Of a stretch of 64,000 bases of DNA, positions 16,062 to 43,903 are shown in pieces (the stretch's first letter is position 1; every line of letters starts with the position of its first letter). Below the pieces are notes generated by a model. The model saw only the letters and a list, made by a program, of their open reading frames with translations, had not been told where the DNA came from and did no database searches. The position numbers and the translations under genes are program-made. Source of the stretch: Bacillota bacterium (GTDB lineage Bacteria > Bacillota > Sulfobacillia > Symbiobacteriales > Symbiobacteriaceae); NCBI GenBank assembly GCA_023623185.1, contig JAMNXV010000114.1, positions 1-64,000 on the forward strand, in the 5' to 3' direction.

Positions 16062-17561
16062 GTGATTGAGCGAATGCACCGCCTGGCGCCGCAGCACAGA
16101 CTCTTCCTGCTACTGCTGGCCGTTGGCCTCGGGCCTGTGGTCCTCCTCCCCTTCCTTGGCCTGGCCCCCCGCACGCTGCTCTGGGCGGCGCCCGCCCTCG
16201 CCCTTCTCCTCTACCTTGTGGCGCACTGGGTCACGCGGCCGCTGGGCGAGGTACTGGCCCTGGCCCGCCGGCTGCGCAGCGGCGACCTCAGGGCCCGGGC
16301 GGTGGTGGAACCGGGGACGGACTGGTTCCTGCTGGCCCGCACCATGACCGACCTGGCGGAGCAGCTGGACACGGTCACCCGGAACCTGGAGGAGCAGGTG
16401 GCAGCGCGCACCGCCGCCCTGGCCCGCAAGGCCGACCAGCTGCGGGCCGTGGGCCAGGTGGGACAGCAGGTGGCGGCCGTGCTGGAGTCCGATGTGCTGC
16501 TCCACTTCGTCACGCGCGTCATGCGGGGCACCTTCGGCTACGACGTGGTCGCCGTGCTGCTGCAGCACGGCGATTACCTGGTGCTCGCGGCGTGCGCGGC
16601 GCGCGGCCGGGAGGAGGTCCCGCTGGGGCGCGCCTTCCCGCTGGCCGGTCCAAGCCCCTCACCGCTGGCGCGCGCCCTGGCCGACGAAGGACACGGGAGC
16701 GCACAGCCCGGGGGCGCAGCGCCCACCCCGCTCCTCCCCGGAACGGCACCCCTGGCCGAAATGGCCATCCCCATCCGCGTGGCCGACCGCACCCTGGGCC
16801 TGATGGTGGTTCAGAGCTTCGACCCGGCGCCCTTCGACGAGGAGGACCGCTTCACCGTGCAGACCATCGCCGGGCAGGTGGCCGTCGCCCTGGAGAACGC
16901 CCGCCTGCTGGAGGCGGAGCGGCGGCTGCGGGGCCTGGCGGTGGCCGAGGAGCGCAACCGCATGGCCCGCGAGATTCACGACACCCTGGCACAGGGGTTC
17001 ATGGGGATCATCATGCAGCTGCGGGCGATGGAGGCCGCGGCCGACCCCGAGACCGCCCGCTTCCACCGGGAGGCCGCCCTGGCCCTGGCCCAGGAGTCGC
17101 TGCAGGAGGCGCGGCGCTCCGTCTGGAACCTGCGGCCCCGCCCGCTGGAGGACCGGGGGCTGGCCGGGGCCTTGGCCGCTGAGGTGGCGGCGCTGGAAGG
17201 GCAGTTCGGCCTGATCGGGCGGTTCCACATGGACGGCGACGCCGCGGCGCTGGAGCCGCCGGTGGAGGTCGCCCTGCTGCGCATCGCGCAGGAGGCGATT
17301 CACAACGCCGTGAAGTACGCCCGCGCCACCCGGCTCGACGTCGGCCTGACCATCCGCGATGGCATGGCCGTGCTGACCGTGGCCGACGACGGCGTCGGCT
17401 TCGACCCGGCCAGCCCGCCGAAGCCCGCGGCCGGCGGGGGCTACGGCCTGGGGATGATGGCCGACCGGGCGCGCCAGGTGGGCGGCGGCCTGGAGGTAGA
17501 CGCCCGCCCGGGCGGCGGCTGCCGCATCGTGGCCCGAGTTCCCTTGCGAAAGGAGAGGTGA
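16062..17561 (+). CDS. Sensor histidine kinase (HAMP, GAF, HisKA_3/HATPase)
   Basis: EERNRMAREIHDTLAQGFMGIIMQL; HNAVKYARAT (N box); VADDGVGFDPAS; YGLGMMADRARQVGGGL. GTG start; 16074 ATG is an alternative. Confidence 0.92.
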   Translation: MIERMHRLAPQHRLFLLLLAVGLGPVVLLPFLGLAPRTLLWAAPALALLLYLVAHWVTRPLGEVLALARRLRSGDLRARAVVEPGTDWFLLARTMTDLAEQLDTVTRNLEEQVAARTAALARKADQLRAVGQVGQQVAAVLESDVLLHFVTRVMRGTFGYDVVAVLLQHGDYLVLAACAARGREEVPLGRAFPLAGPSPSPLARALADEGHGSAQPGGAAPTPLLPGTAPLAEMAIPIRVADRTLGLMVVQSFDPAPFDEEDRFTVQTIAGQVAVALENARLLEAERRLRGLAVAEERNRMAREIHDTLAQGFMGIIMQLRAMEAAADPETARFHREAALALAQESLQEARRSVWNLRPRPLEDRGLAGALAAEVAALEGQFGLIGRFHMDGDAAALEPPVEVALLRIAQEAIHNAVKYARATRLDVGLTIRDGMAVLTVADDGVGFDPASPPKPAAGGGYGLGMMADRARQVGGGLEVDARPGGGCRIVARVPLRKER

Positions 17562-17562
17562 G

Positions 17563-18207
17563 ATGGCCGTCAGAGTGGTGGTGGTCGACGACCACCGCGT
17601 CGTGCGGGCCGGTTTGGTCGCCCTGCTCCGCCAGGCGCCGGGCCTCGAGGTGGTGGGCGAGGCCGGCAACGGGCAGGAGGCCCTGGACGTGGTGGAGGCC
17701 ACGAAGCCCGACGTGGTGCTGATGGACATGCAGATGCCGGTGATGAACGGCGTGGAAGCCACCCGGCAGATCCGGGCCAGGTTCCCGGACGTCGAGGTGC
17801 TGGTGCTCACCACCTACGACGACGACGAGCTCATCTGGGGCGGCATCCAGGCCGGGGCGAAGGGCTATCTGCTGAAGGACGCCCCGCCGCAGCAGCTCCT
17901 GGAGGGGATCGAGACCGTGGCACGGGGTCAGTCCCTGCTGTCGCCGGAGATCGCCGCCAAGCTGGTGCAGGTGATCAGCCAGGGGGGGCCCGCCCGGCAG
18001 GAAGGCGCGGAGGGGCTGACCGAACGGGAGACCGAAATCCTGCGGCTTATCGCCTCGGGCGCCGCCAACAAGGAGATCGCCGCGGCGCTCTTCATCAGCG
18101 AGAACACGGTGAAGACGCACATCTCCAACCTGTTTCAGAAACTCGGAGCCCGCGACCGCACGGAGGCGGTCACGAAGGCGCTGGCGCGGGGCTGGCTCCG
18201 ACTTTAG
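17563..18207 (+). CDS. NarL/LuxR-family response regulator
   Basis: VVVVDDHRVVRAGLVALL...DVVLMDMQMPVMNG...LTERETEILRLIASGAANKEIAAALFISENTVKTHISNLFQKLGARDRTEA. Confidence 0.95.
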   Translation: MAVRVVVVDDHRVVRAGLVALLRQAPGLEVVGEAGNGQEALDVVEATKPDVVLMDMQMPVMNGVEATRQIRARFPDVEVLVLTTYDDDELIWGGIQAGAKGYLLKDAPPQQLLEGIETVARGQSLLSPEIAAKLVQVISQGGPARQEGAEGLTERETEILRLIASGAANKEIAAALFISENTVKTHISNLFQKLGARDRTEAVTKALARGWLRL

Positions 18208-18212
18208 GGAAG

Positions 18213-18240
18213 GCCGCATCGCCCAAACGGGTGATGCGGC
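18213..18240 (+). terminator. Hairpin GCCGCATCGCCC-aaac-GGGTGATGCGGC
   Basis: Near-perfect 11-12 bp stem 6 nt after the response regulator stop. Confidence 0.55.
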
Positions 18241-18337
18241 CCTTCGCCTGACTGGAGCCATGCAAAACGCCCACCCCGGCGATGGTGAAGAAGTCCACGG
18301 CTTCGGTATGATTTCGGTACGGAAGGGGGAGGAGCGC

Positions 18338-19309
18338 ATGGCAGCATCGTTGACCGAAGCGGAGGTGCGGAGTGCCAGAGCAGCCGCACCCGCCGTGCTG
18401 ATCGAGGCCAGGGGGCTGGTGAAGCGCTACGGCGACAAGCTGGCCGTCGACGGGTTCAGCCTGCAGGTCCGCTCCGGCGAGATCGTCGGCCTGCTGGGGC
18501 CCAACGGCGCCGGCAAGACCACCGCCGTCGAGATGATGGAGGGGCTGCGCCGCCCCGACGCCGGACAGAGCATCATCTGCGGCCTCGACGTGCACCGGCA
18601 GGGCCGCGCGCTCAGGCCCCGCATCGGGATTGCGCTGCAGGCGGCCCGTTTGCCGGAGTACGCCACCGTGCTGGAAATCCTCACGCTCTACGCCAGCTTC
18701 TATGAGGACCCGATGCCCGTGGGGGACCTGCTGCGGCAGTTCAGCCTGGAGGAGAAGGCCCGCACCCGGTTCTCGCACCTCTCCGGGGGCCAGCGGCAGC
18801 GGCTGGCCCTGGCCGTGGCCCTCATCGGACGGCCGAAGGTGCTCTTCCTGGACGAGCCGACCACGGGCCTGGACCCGCAGGCGCGCCACGCCCTCTGGGA
18901 CGTGATCCTCGACCTGAAAGAGGAAGGGCGCGCCATCCTCCTGACCACCCACTACATGGAGGAGGCCGAGCGGCTCTGCGACCGGGTGGCGGTGATGGAC
19001 CACGGGCGCATCCTGGCCGAGGGGACGCCCCGGGAGCTCACCAGGGCATACGGGCCCGAGGCCGCCGTGGAGCTGGACCCGGGCGGCGCCCGGGTGGACC
19101 TGGCCGAACTGGCCCGGCTGTCCGCGGTGACCGGCGTGCGCTCGGAGGACGGGCGGGTGCTGCTGCACACCGCCAACCCTCCGGCCACCCTGATGGCCCT
19201 GGCCCGCTACGCCCAGGAGCGCAGCCTGCCGCTCTCCGACCTGCGAACCCGCTCCGCGACGATGGATGACGTGTTCATGGCCCTCACGGGAAGGAGGCTG
19301 CGTGACTGA
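18338..19309 (+). CDS. ABC transporter ATP-binding protein (ABC-2 exporter)
   Basis: GLLGPNGAGKTTAVEMMEGLRRPDAG; LSGGQRQRLALAVALIGRPKVLFLDEPTTGLDPQARHALWD; start preceded by GGGGGAGGAGCGC. Confidence 0.94.
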   Translation: MAASLTEAEVRSARAAAPAVLIEARGLVKRYGDKLAVDGFSLQVRSGEIVGLLGPNGAGKTTAVEMMEGLRRPDAGQSIICGLDVHRQGRALRPRIGIALQAARLPEYATVLEILTLYASFYEDPMPVGDLLRQFSLEEKARTRFSHLSGGQRQRLALAVALIGRPKVLFLDEPTTGLDPQARHALWDVILDLKEEGRAILLTTHYMEEAERLCDRVAVMDHGRILAEGTPRELTRAYGPEAAVELDPGGARVDLAELARLSAVTGVRSEDGRVLLHTANPPATLMALARYAQERSLPLSDLRTRSATMDDVFMALTGRRLRD

Positions 19310-20418
19310 TGCGGATGGCCAACCAGCTCTGGCAGGTGCTGATGCTGAACGTCCGGCAGCAGATGCGCAACAAGAGCGCGTTCTTCTTCAACCTCATCAT
19401 GCCCGTCCTGATGCTGCTCTTCTTCGGGGCCACCAACGCCGGTTCCGACACCGTCACCGCCGTGACGGTGGGCCTGGTGGACCGGGACGGCGGCCCCGTG
19501 GCCCAGCTCATCCGGACAGGCCTGCAAGAGTCGGGCTACTTCGAGGTGGAAGCCGGCGAGGAGGCGGAGCTGATCAGGCGGCTGGACGCCGGGAAGGTCC
19601 GGGCCGTGCTGGTCCTGCCGGCGGGGCTGAGCGAGCAGGTGGCCGTCGGCTCCGGCCCCGCGGAGGTCATCGTCCACTGGGACCCGACCTCCACCGCATC
19701 CGCCGCCGCGCAGGGCGGGTTGCAGTACCTGATCCAGGGCCTGGAGACCTTCCAGAAGGAGCCATCCATCGCCGTGCGCGACCAGCGGCTGGATTCCACC
19801 GAGCAGCTGGGACTCTTCGACTTTATGATGCCGGGCCTCCTGGTCTACATGACCCTGAACGCCGGGGTGCTGGCCATCGGCACCGCCGTCTCCTACCAGC
19901 AGCGGGCGGGAACCCTGCGCCATATGTTCAGCACGCCGCTGACCATGGGCGCCTGGCTGGTGGGCACCGTGCTGGGCAACCACCTCCTCGCCATCCTGCA
20001 GCTCTCCGTGATCTGGTGCGTCGGAATCGCCTTCTTCAAGATCCAGTTGCCCAACAACCTGCCCGGCACCGTGGCCATTCTGCTGCTCAGCAGCACGGCC
20101 GGCATCGGCATCGGCCTGGCCATCGCAGCCTTCGCCCGAAGCGGCGAGACAGCCATGCCCATCGCGATCATCGCCTCCATGGGGCTCACCTTCCTGGGCA
20201 ACGCGATGATGCCCCTGGACCACGCGCCGGAGATCGTCCAGACCGTGATGCGCTTCATGCCCAGCTACTACATGACCCACGCGCTCCAGCAGGTAACGAT
20301 GAAGGGCCAGCCGCTTGCCGCCGTGCTCCCTGACCTGGGGGTGCTGGCCCTCACGGCTACGATCGGCCTCGGGTTGGCGGCCTGGCGGCTGCGCCGAACC
20401 GTGGTGACGGCGGCCTGA
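19309..20418 (+). CDS. ABC-2 type transporter permease
   Basis: NVRQQMRNKSAFFFNLIMPVLMLLFFG...GLLVYMTLNAGVLAIGTAVSYQQRAGTLRHMFSTPL...NAMMPLDHAPEIVQTVMRFMPSYYM; overlaps the ATPase stop. Confidence 0.93.
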   Translation: MRMANQLWQVLMLNVRQQMRNKSAFFFNLIMPVLMLLFFGATNAGSDTVTAVTVGLVDRDGGPVAQLIRTGLQESGYFEVEAGEEAELIRRLDAGKVRAVLVLPAGLSEQVAVGSGPAEVIVHWDPTSTASAAAQGGLQYLIQGLETFQKEPSIAVRDQRLDSTEQLGLFDFMMPGLLVYMTLNAGVLAIGTAVSYQQRAGTLRHMFSTPLTMGAWLVGTVLGNHLLAILQLSVIWCVGIAFFKIQLPNNLPGTVAILLLSSTAGIGIGLAIAAFARSGETAMPIAIIASMGLTFLGNAMMPLDHAPEIVQTVMRFMPSYYMTHALQQVTMKGQPLAAVLPDLGVLALTATIGLGLAAWRLRRTVVTAA

Positions 20419-20438
20419 CGGTCCGCCCGTACGAGCAA

Positions 20439-20468
20439 GAACCGGCTCCCCTGCGCGGGAGCCGGTTC
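20439..20468 (+). terminator. Hairpin GAACCGGCTCCC-loop-GGGAGCCGGTTC
   Basis: 12-bp perfect stem after the permease. Confidence 0.65.
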
Positions 20469-20481
20469 GCGCGTGTTCAGT

Positions 20482-20955
20482 TGGTTCCGGGCAGAATGTG
20501 CACGCTGACCGGGAGTCAGGGTGCACTTTCTGCCCCGAACTTCAAGGGAAACTGGTGGAATGACGGAGGGGCGCCCCTGCCACACCCGCAGTCGATGCGA
20601 TGACGGACCAGTTGCGGGCAGAATGTGCATGCTGCCCTGGATGCCAAGTGCATTTTCTGCCCCGAACTCCCCGGAAAGCGGTGAAATCACGGAGGGGCGC
20701 CCCTGCCACACCCGCAGTCGATGCGATGACGGACCAGTTGCGGGCACAACGTGCATGCTGCCCTGGATGCCAAGTGCATTTTCTGCCCCGAACTCCCCGG
20801 GAAGGCGGTGGAATCACGGGAGGAGTGCCCCTGCCGCACCCTCAGTCGACGCGATGACGGACCAGTTGCGGGCACAATGTGCATGCTGCCCTGGATGCCA
20901 AGTGCACTTTCTGCCCCGAACTCCCCGGAAAGCGGTGAAATCTCGGAGGGGCTGC
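20482..20955. repeat. Four tandem ~127 bp units, each with a palindromic core
   Basis: GGGCA anchors at 20489, 20616, 20742 and 20870 (spacing 127/126/128). Shared text TGCATGCTGCCCTGGATGCCAAGTGCA(T/C)TTTCTGCCCCGAACTCCCCGG and GCAGTCGATGCGATGACGGACCAGTTGCGGGCA. Confidence 0.9.
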
Positions 20956-21005
20956 CCCTGCACTTACCCGGCGGCACGGCCGCGGGCCAAGTCGTCGAAG
21001 CATGA

Positions 21006-21030
21006 AGGGCTCCCGCATGTGGGAGCCCCT
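21006..21030 (-). terminator. Hairpin AGGGCTCCC-gcatgt-GGGAGCCCCT
   Basis: Stem directly downstream of the minus-strand rocA stop. Confidence 0.6.
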
Positions 21031-21048: not shown

Positions 21049-22605
21049 CTACAGCTTCTCCGACACCGCCTGCGCCTGGGTGAAGAGCAGCAGGTAGTCC
21101 GGGCCGCCGGCCTTCGAGTCGGTGCCGCTCATGTTGAAGCCGCCGAAGGGGTGCACACCGACGATGGCGCCGGTGGACTTCCGGTTGAAATACAGGTTCC
21201 CGACCATGAACGCCTTGCGGGCGCGCTCCAGGTTCGCCCGGTTCCGGGAATAGACGGAGCCCGTCAGGCCGTACTCGGTATCGTTGGCGATGCGCAGGGC
21301 GTCCTCGAAGTCCTCGGCCTTGATGAAGGCCAGCACCGGCCCGAAGATCTCCTCCTGCGCGATGCGGGCGTTCGGGGCCACGTCCGCGAAGATGGTGGGC
21401 TCCACGTAGAAGCCCCCCGGCCGGGCGCTGCCGCCCAGCACCAGACGGCCCTCCGACTTGCCGATCTCGATATACTCCAGGATCTTCTTCTGGTACCGCT
21501 CCGCCGTCACGGGGCCGACGTCGGTCGCCTTCTCGGTGGCCGGGCCGATCTTCAGGGCTCGGGTGCGCGCCACCACCTTCTCCAGCACCTGGTCGTACAC
21601 GTCCGCCGTCACCACCGCCCGGGAGCAGGCCGAGCACTTCTGGCCGCTGAAGCCGAAGGCGGATGCCACGATGCCGGCCGCCGCCTCGTCCAGGTCTGCG
21701 CTGCCGTCTACGATGATGGCGTCCTTGCCGCCCATCTCGGCGATGACCCGCCGCAGGAACTTCTGCCCCGGCTGCACCTTCGCCGCCAGTTCGTAGATGT
21801 GGCAGCCCACCTGCTTCGAGCCGGTAAAGTTGATGAAGCGGACCTCCTTGTGGGTGGTGAGGTAGTCGCCCACCTCGACCGGGTCCGCGAAGAGCAGGTT
21901 GGCCACGCCCGGCGGCAGCCCGGCCTCCTCCAGGATCTCAAAGACCTTCGCGGCGATCACCGGCGCCTCGGTGGAGGGCTTCACCACCACGGTGTTCCCG
22001 GCCACGATGGCCGCCGCCGTCATCCCCGTCAGAATGGCCAGCGGAAAGTTGAAAGGGCTGTGGACCACCCCCACTCCCAGCGGCCGGTAGTAAAGGTGGT
22101 TCTCCTCGCCGGGATAAGGGGTGAGCGGCTGGGGAGCGGCCAGCCGCAGCATCTGCCGGCCGTAGTACTCCAGGAAGTCGATGGCCTCCGCGGTGTCGGC
22201 GTCGGCCTCGGCCCAGTTCTTGCCCACCTCGTGGCACATCCAGGCCGACAGCTCGTGCCGCCGGCGCCGCATGATGGCCGCGGCCTTGAACAGCACCCGG
22301 GCCCGGACCTCGGCCGGGGTGTCAGCCCAGGCCGGGAAGGCCTCCACGGCGGCCTGCACCGCCGCCTCCGCCTCGGCGAGCCCGCCCCTGGCCGCGTAGC
22401 CCACCACCTGGTCGGGCTGCGAGGGGTTGACGGACGCGATGCTCTCCCCGGTGTCCACGCGCTTTCCGCCGATGATCATCGGATAGCGCTGCCCCAGCTG
22501 CTCCTTCACGGTGGCCAGCCCCTGCTCGAAGGCCGCCGCCACCTCCGGCTTGCTGAAGTCGCTGAAGGGCTCGGGGCGGAACGGTTTATTGTGCAATCTC
22601 AGCAC
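21049..22605 (-). CDS. rocA: L-glutamate gamma-semialdehyde (1-pyrroline-5-carboxylate) dehydrogenase
   Basis: PFNFPLAILTGMTAAAIVAGNTVVVKPSTEAPV; INFTGSKQVG; EMGGKDAIIVD; FSGQKCSACSRAVV; FGGFNMSGTDSKAGG. Confidence 0.95.
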   Translation of the reverse strand: MLRLHNKPFRPEPFSDFSKPEVAAAFEQGLATVKEQLGQRYPMIIGGKRVDTGESIASVNPSQPDQVVGYAARGGLAEAEAAVQAAVEAFPAWADTPAEVRARVLFKAAAIMRRRRHELSAWMCHEVGKNWAEADADTAEAIDFLEYYGRQMLRLAAPQPLTPYPGEENHLYYRPLGVGVVHSPFNFPLAILTGMTAAAIVAGNTVVVKPSTEAPVIAAKVFEILEEAGLPPGVANLLFADPVEVGDYLTTHKEVRFINFTGSKQVGCHIYELAAKVQPGQKFLRRVIAEMGGKDAIIVDGSADLDEAAAGIVASAFGFSGQKCSACSRAVVTADVYDQVLEKVVARTRALKIGPATEKATDVGPVTAERYQKKILEYIEIGKSEGRLVLGGSARPGGFYVEPTIFADVAPNARIAQEEIFGPVLAFIKAEDFEDALRIANDTEYGLTGSVYSRNRANLERARKAFMVGNLYFNRKSTGAIVGVHPFGGFNMSGTDSKAGGPDYLLLFTQAQAVSEKL

Positions 22606-43460: not shown

Positions 43461-43694
43461 GGGTTACGATGGACCGGGAGACAACAGAGTGTCGTTTCCA
43501 CGGGCAGATCCCGAAAACGCACCTGTTGCCTCCCTTCTTGTTGTGTTGGCCAGGATAGGCTCTGGACCACGCCCGTCTGTCGAGGAGGACGCCGACCAGA
43601 GCCCTGGACGCCAACCTCGGCTCCTGAGCCCCTCGTCCCACCACCGCTCGCAATAGCCTGGAAGCCACCGCCTTATGTTCGCTTTCGCCGGAAC

Positions 43695-43792
43695 GAATGT
43701 GCACTTTCCGCAAACCCTTGTGCCACAGGCATTTCCGCAGTCACGATCCCCGAAACCCAGGTCACGCTTGGCGCTCACGAAAGTGCACTTTC
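43695..43792. repeat. Two GTGCAC-centred palindromic copies (43695-43708, 43779-43792)
   Basis: GAATGTGCACTTTC and perfect palindrome GAAAGTGCACTTTC; core resembles the palindromic core of the 20.5 kb array. Confidence 0.55.
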
Positions 43793-43903
43793 TTTCCAAC
43801 CGCAGCTCTGACGGGAAAAGGCCCGGGTAGCGAGAGCGCAGGCGCATCCAGGTCGCCCCCGGGCGCCGGGCCCCGCTGCCGCGAGCCTGCGTCGAAAGAA
43901 GGC

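Follow-up and report, generated by a model that had tools for sequence, protein, structure and literature searches.

The window, which is the whole 64-kb stretch of DNA analyzed here, is contig C99 of the host genome G000 (226 contigs). Within it, an ABC-type exporter permease gene and a rocA-like gene converge, and the gap between them is filled by a tandem array of palindromic units (Table 1). A first-pass annotation of this DNA had named the same setting and had described a four-copy array of ~127 bp, and both descriptions are borne out. TRF, run on the 64-kb window, places the array at 20484-20961 with a period of 126 bp, 3.8 copies, 89% matches, and a score of 722. In full it covers 20484-20965, with four units, the last of them shortened to about 101 bp; a repeat search gives their spacings as 127, 126, and 128 bp. 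The array is not a chance product, because the scores of the remaining arrays in the window are all far lower and come nowhere near it. The palindromes start where they had been annotated, at 20489, 20616, 20742, and 20870, and the drift reported for one arm of units 3 and 4 is likewise present, both carrying GGGCACAA on the left arm. In unit 1, the symmetry of the core site reaches about 7 bp farther on both sides. Each end of the array is bracketed by a simple hairpin, and neither hairpin scored in a scan for intrinsic terminators.

Table 1. Features of the array, its surroundings, and related elements (window positions unless another locus is named)
Feature	Position	Strand	Length or basis
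ABC-type exporter permease gene, flanking	19309..20418	+	gene annotation
Hairpin AACCGGCTCCC..GGGAGCCGGTT, 3' of ABC permease gene, terminator-like without T-run	20439..20468	+	sequence, repeat search
Array unit 1, best palindrome	20484..20610		127 bp
Core site of unit 1: half-site GGCAGAATGTGCA, 19 bp, inverted half-site	20490..20534		45 bp; geometry and site-model match
Array unit 2	20611..20736		126 bp
Core site of unit 2	20617..20661		45 bp; geometry and site-model match
Array unit 3	20737..20864		128 bp
Core site of unit 3, left arm GGCACAACGTGCA	20743..20787		45 bp; geometry and site-model match
Array unit 4, truncated	20865..20965		about 101 bp
Core site of unit 4, left arm GGCACAATGTGCA	20871..20915		45 bp; geometry and site-model match
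Hairpin GGGCTCCC..GGGAGCCC, 3' of rocA-like gene	about 21003..21027	-	sequence, repeat search
rocA-like gene (delta-1-pyrroline-5-carboxylate/aldehyde dehydrogenase), flanking	21049..22605	-	gene annotation
Tract near-identical to G002	17192..20607		4 differences in 3.4 kb (99.9% identical)
Second element, unarrayed: AACGAATGTGCACTTTCC and diverged palindromic copy 84 bp away	43692..43795		
Candidate partner gene L246	G000:C3:6193-7191		333 aa
115-bp palindrome family	L045:2163-2450		
115-bp palindrome family	L197:3481-3724		
115-bp palindrome family	L282:1580-2013		
115-bp palindrome family	L278:77-677		

Recurrent half-sites and their helical register

How much of this unit is found beyond the window? 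A search with the whole unit returned the array itself, weak arm-like matches and, elsewhere, only the orthologous site in G002, the complete genome (3,566,135 bases) of a related Symbiobacterium, which carries three units to the four of G000. Occurrence of the unit nowhere else had been named in advance as part of what would refute the first-pass reading. For the linker, the single orthologous locus is indeed all there is, but the half-sites recur and are the conserved part. Judged by sequence comparison, the conserved entity is the half-site, not the unit. The half-site GGCRGAATGTGCAC recurs in about 30 intergenic arrays of G000 and G002, and the half-arm GGGCAGAATGTGCA is found again in other arrays. 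At nine loci compared with the distance left free, every site reads GGC-RRAATGTGCA, 19 bp, TGCACATTYYGCC, for a total of 45 bp, and in many copies the symmetry is extended outwards to GTTC..GAAC.

Two classes of site share this geometry. Class 1 half-sites are paired at one distance throughout (~20 arrays, with one aberrant first unit), while class 2 sites, CGCGCARAAYCTGAAC, are built on the same 45 bp, 92 of 93 half-site pairs falling at one distance in an unbiased window of 14 to 60 bp. The census comes from model searches whose counts are lower bounds: class 1 has at least 105 matches in G002 (both strands) and at least 21 in G000, and class 2 occupies at least 11 loci in G002, most of which are arrays. 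The class 1 matches listed include none from a second Symbiobacterium species or from five further genomes. When 84,980 species genomes were scanned for GAATGTGCA-N17-21-TGCACATTC, most matches were lone and chance-like. Leifsonia sp. CL147 (L108, L114, L115, and L130) has real intergenic tandem arrays of TGCACATTCGTSACGAATGTGCA, a half-site-like sequence in another build, with 23-bp palindromes at a 40-bp period, and a Coriobacteriaceae metagenome-assembled genome (L132 and L137) has two long palindromic repeats, GAATGTGCA..CTCGTATTTTATGAGG..TGCACATTC, on a single contig.

The dispersed arrays lie mostly 3' of genes, often between convergent and rarely between divergent ones. Eleven G002 arrays compared with G000 and G001 are mostly absent at the orthologous sites, and this comparison yielded no clean empty site, the intergenic regions being too divergent. 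Inspected by eye, replication-strand bias of the arrays is not significant. Arrays at L146 and L147 adjoin genes for group II intron reverse transcriptases that are nearly identical.

The spacing of the sites follows whole turns of the double helix. Mean periods of 64, 74.7, 85.3, 106.7, 117, 127, 138.5, and 171.5 bp correspond to 6, 7, 8, 10, 11, 12, 13, and 16 turns of 10.66 bp. Phasing across 27 arrays is strong (V = 0.956 at 10.667 bp, p = 1e-12), and a Monte Carlo test that counts each of the 8 period classes once and leaves the helical repeat free between 9.5 and 11.8 bp gives p = 6e-5. No phase appears in 19 other tandem arrays drawn from these same genomes (V = 0.07), a control set that includes the 115-bp palindrome family (10.8 turns; described below) and the upstream arrays of longest period (200-250 bp), both of which misfit the 10.667-bp phasing. 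The register is kept over long distances, sites deviating by at most about 4 bp over up to 1 kb, and at the glyS locus the orthologous arrays differ by one turn, with periods of 117 bp in G002 and 127 bp in G000.

Could the common periods simply reflect common descent? Within one array the linkers are usually alike (similarity of 0.5 to 0.94). Between arrays of equal period they are unrelated, with a similarity of 0.574 versus 0.559 for shuffled sequence. The common period is therefore not inherited from one ancestral unit, and the arrays are not recent wholesale copies of each other, which contradicts what a simple copy-out model predicts. The first-pass annotation had listed an amplified palindromic element and a protein-binding array among its candidates, and both are supported by the recurring half-sites, the fixed geometry, and the many arrays. 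The single exact half-site distance, the helical-repeat spacings, and the presence of half-sites in other arrays go beyond it.

A candidate nuclease gene family next to the arrays

In G002 the array at 1.206 Mb, and in G000 the array at the end of contig C3, are each immediately upstream of a gene, and the two genes are homologous; a class 2 array at 2.927 Mb is likewise immediately upstream of a homologue. The candidate partner of the window array, L246, belongs to this family and is encoded in the window's own genome. A dedicated partner enzyme had been anticipated. Its existence looks right, but its type does not, as the candidate found here is not a transposase but a winged-helix nuclease. 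The product, of ~330 amino acids, combines a pair of winged-helix domains with a Vsr/EDxHD-like nuclease domain at the C terminus. Conserved catalytic residues, as looked for in a Vsr, EDxHD, or PD-(D/E)XK nuclease, are present: D222, E232, G235, H238, T242, and K261 are invariant in 42 aligned homologs, very diverged copies included. An AlphaFold model is confident, with a pLDDT of 92.6. PHROG profiles liken the C terminus to phage homing endonucleases (phrog_559, E = 3e-13 for L282) and the N terminus to phage replication initiators, and Pfam gives HTH matches alone for most members. The best relevant Foldseek match of the C terminus is Vsr (1cw0) and is weak (TM of about 0.4, E = 1.5), while the whole protein retrieves winged helices only. 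NCBIfam and PADLOC hold no family that covers it. The nuclease family appears to be previously undescribed, and the arrays appear to be its targets.

Three Symbiobacterium genomes carry 7, 6, and 7 copies of the family, which is present in 20 of the 61 genomes of the class. How regular is its association with arrays? A tandem array lies within 700 bp upstream of 13 of the 20 Symbiobacterium copies and downstream of 3 (sign test, p = 0.013), leaving 7 copies that have no nearby upstream array. The upstream arrays are 98 to 363 bp from the start of the nuclease gene, and 12 of the 13 are strong, with scores of at least 488 and periods of 75 to 250 bp. Twelve strong arrays for 20 genes have P <= 2e-11 at a chance rate of at most 5% per gene. 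With only about 3 comparable arrays in 164 kb (the window plus 100 kb of G002), an assumed per-gene rate of 2 to 5% is generous. Outside Symbiobacterium, the upstream preference is not significant (8/30 versus 5/30 downstream). The genome G004 has eleven copies of the family, and the copies examined have no long-period upstream array. Viral contigs (L312-L333) encode distant relatives of the nuclease domain, at 25 to 46% identity. At L154:3530-3754, right after a class 1 array, lies a probable relic of the 3' end of a nuclease gene.

Site divergence between genomes and paralogs

The class 1 half-site differs between the two genomes at a single base. At base 4, G000 has A in 26 of its 28 arms and G002 has G in 132 of 136; the difference spans unlinked arrays, including those beside the nuclease gene of each genome and the orthologous glyS array. 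This pattern, as read from the aligned arms, suggests trans-acting selection on the half-sites. Among the arrays of G002, only the ortholog of the window array departs from this rule, and it adjoins the tract of near identity. In the window this tract (Table 1) is flanked by DNA that is about 85 to 90% identical (10 to 15% different), and its right end falls inside the array, at the boundary of units 1 and 2. The simplest reading is that tract and array were transferred from a relative of G000 into the G002 lineage. A tract boundary at the array is the outcome expected from break repair there, in what is a single case. In G002, several CRISPR arrays (GTCGTCCCCACGCGCGTGGGGGTGAACCG) lie at L215:6960-13879, near a region syntenic with the window.

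Paralogs of the nuclease likewise differ in the sites they accompany, every paralog checked adjoining its own palindrome type. Class 1 sites lie beside L246 and L247 and class 2 sites beside L266. L246 and L247 are 67 to 70% identical to L266, with 58 to 61% in the N-terminal half and 75 to 78% in the nuclease half. A family of 115-bp palindrome arrays (GATTTCCACTTCGC..GCGAAGTSGAAATC) is found beside L282, in two dispersed arrays of G000, and beside the G002 relative L278; the one at L197 stands where G002 carries a class 1 array. A test search was made with the palindrome beside L267 (GAGCCAC-N-GTGGCTC). It has 34 sites in the genome that encodes L267, G001, and 1, 2, and 7 in G000, G002, and G004, respectively; reversed-pattern controls gave 1 or 2. 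The intervals between L267-type sites are phased at the preset 10.667 bp (V = 0.75, p = 1.2e-5).

A proposed mechanism and its alternatives

What might maintain such arrays? The favored explanation, with a probability of roughly two in three, is that the window array is the recognition-site platform of L246 acting as a sequence-specific DNA-binding nuclease, with a dimer on each site and with arrays resized and spread by cutting and repair. Each unit would present one palindromic site of ~57 to 60 bp, made of two inverted half-sites of ~20 bp with a rigid 45-bp core, and L246 would most likely bind it as a dimer with one half-site per subunit. Adjacent dimers would be packed on the same face of the DNA, given that unit spacings are whole numbers of helical turns. 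The nuclease most likely cuts or nicks its own sites, and repair of the breaks would resize arrays and copy sites, or the DNA beside them, from one allele or genome to another. The arrays, their geometry and phasing, the association with the genes, the genome-specific half-site, and the conversion-like tract are seen in the sequence itself, from which binding, dimerization, cleavage, and repair are inferred. Diverged paralogs would each have a palindrome type of their own, in the form of a gene-adjacent array and dispersed arrays. The broader proposal is more tentative, at somewhat less than even odds: that these are an undescribed class of chromosomal element, in which winged-helix/Vsr-like nuclease families have palindromes of their own in helical-turn arrays across the genome, specificity and sites coevolve, and arrays spread and are resized by cutting and repair.

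The main rival casts the protein as a transcription regulator or a nucleoid protein. On this view the array upstream of its gene is an operator for autoregulation, the arrays elsewhere are regulatory or architectural, and the nuclease domain serves another purpose, with no role in array dynamics. The 98- to 363-bp distance of the arrays from the gene start, the suitability of helical phasing for cooperative binding, and the resemblance of the N-terminal winged-helix (wHTH) domains to regulators and initiators all agree with it. The location of the dispersed arrays, mostly downstream of genes and rarely between divergent ones, also counts in its favor. Against it, the dispersed arrays are seldom in a promoter position, catalytic residues are invariant even in very diverged copies, and the arrays turn over between species, being mostly absent at orthologous sites, unlike conserved regulatory sites. 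Such a regulator is considered unlikely.

The other explanations are far less probable. Neutral tandem duplication of arbitrary sequence (a VNTR) would account for the copy number of 3 versus 4 and for the homogenized units within arrays, but it is contradicted by half-sites and geometry that are common to arrays with unrelated linkers, and neither the unphased control arrays nor the genome-specific base of the half-site is what it would lead one to expect; it is very improbable. A structured RNA, which had been suggested earlier, or a multi-hairpin transcription terminator is just as hard to credit. The convergent-gene setting suits it, and unit 1 folds better as RNA than its shuffled versions (z of -3.4/-4.4), but units 2 to 4 fold no better than shuffled sequence (z of -0.9 to +1.1), Rfam has no match for the window array, and B-DNA helical phasing would serve no purpose in RNA. 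Arm-to-arm covariation and pairing are no better than shuffled in class 1 and class 2 alike, a result that suits a DNA site better than an RNA stem. Less credible still is derivation from the ends of IS21-family elements. Most of the first 11 to 13 positions of the half-site TGCACATTCCGCC agree with local IS21 ends (TGCGTATTCCGG), but those ends are direct repeats of ~22 bp in another layout, and 65 of the 66 exact half-sites listed for G002 are inside arrays, with none at an IS end. Identity with an IS21 terminal repeat or a MITE was rejected, as the half-site is not the end of any IS in the genome.

Equally remote is the candidate that the first-pass annotation had put forward, a REP/BIME-type repeat moved by a RAYT (Y1 tyrosine, TnpA_REP) transposase. 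Dispersed intergenic palindromes, often between convergent genes, do recall it. It is contradicted by a profile search for PF01797 (Y1_Tnp), which is found in none of five genomes and in 5 of 14 control genomes as positive controls, and by the build of the sites: loops of ~17 to 19 bp rather than 4 to 5 nt, head-to-tail arrays of fixed geometry, and no GTAG tag at a fixed place in the aligned sites. REP/REPIN-RAYT systems consist of GTAG-tagged REPs with a dedicated enzyme gene (PMC3733652, PMC2817692). The likeness to them lies in the dispersed intergenic palindromes and in a dedicated enzyme gene with repeats of its own type on its flanks; the differences are a winged-helix Vsr/EDxHD-like nuclease in place of a Y1 transposase and sites of ~57 to 60 bp with 17- to 19-bp centers that are tandem and helically phased. 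REPs tagged with CGTC have 4- to 5-bp loops and were not found in this phylum (PMC3733652), and here CGTC occurs in some arrays only. By analogy, the system is most likely REP/RAYT-like in logic and run by a different enzyme, and it falls outside REP/RAYT as that is defined.

Three other comparisons bear on the proposed nuclease. (i) EDxHD enzymes dimerize on targets of nearly 60 bp (PMC3943268). Homing endonucleases of this type, such as I-Bth0305I, have a related-looking nuclease domain and a target close in size to the sites here, but the present family differs in its tandem winged-helix DNA-binding part and its many chromosomal target arrays and is not intron-borne. (ii) Odn of phage ICP1, a nuclease with an initiator-like domain, cuts semipalindromic iterons of ~30 bp and requires the iterons (PMC8263062). 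The joining of a nuclease to an initiator-like DNA-binding domain is shared, but the nuclease domain of Odn is T5orf172/GIY-YIG and its target is the origin of a parasite, not host arrays beside the gene. (iii) Iteron arrays at plasmid and phage origins also combine tandem winged-helix proteins with tandem sites in helical register, but here many arrays are dispersed over the chromosome. A literature search found no description of such arrays, which is not proof of absence.

If the nuclease explanation is correct, arrays and enzymes together would form a repeat-plus-enzyme system of a new kind. Noncoding repeats kept by a dedicated protein, the arrangement known from REP/RAYT, would then have arisen a second time with an unrelated enzyme. 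Thanks to the helical register, the binding model lends itself to direct testing. The arrays would also explain assembly breaks and one between-species recombination boundary in these genomes, and paralogs with differing palindromes would offer a natural set of new tandem winged-helix specificities joined to a nuclease. Another of these palindrome types is present in the window itself, in the unarrayed second element (Table 1). Its AACGAATGTGCACTTTCC is an exact match to the array upstream of the nuclease paralog L277 in G002, and its half-site is of the type that accompanies the L277 and L283 paralogs.
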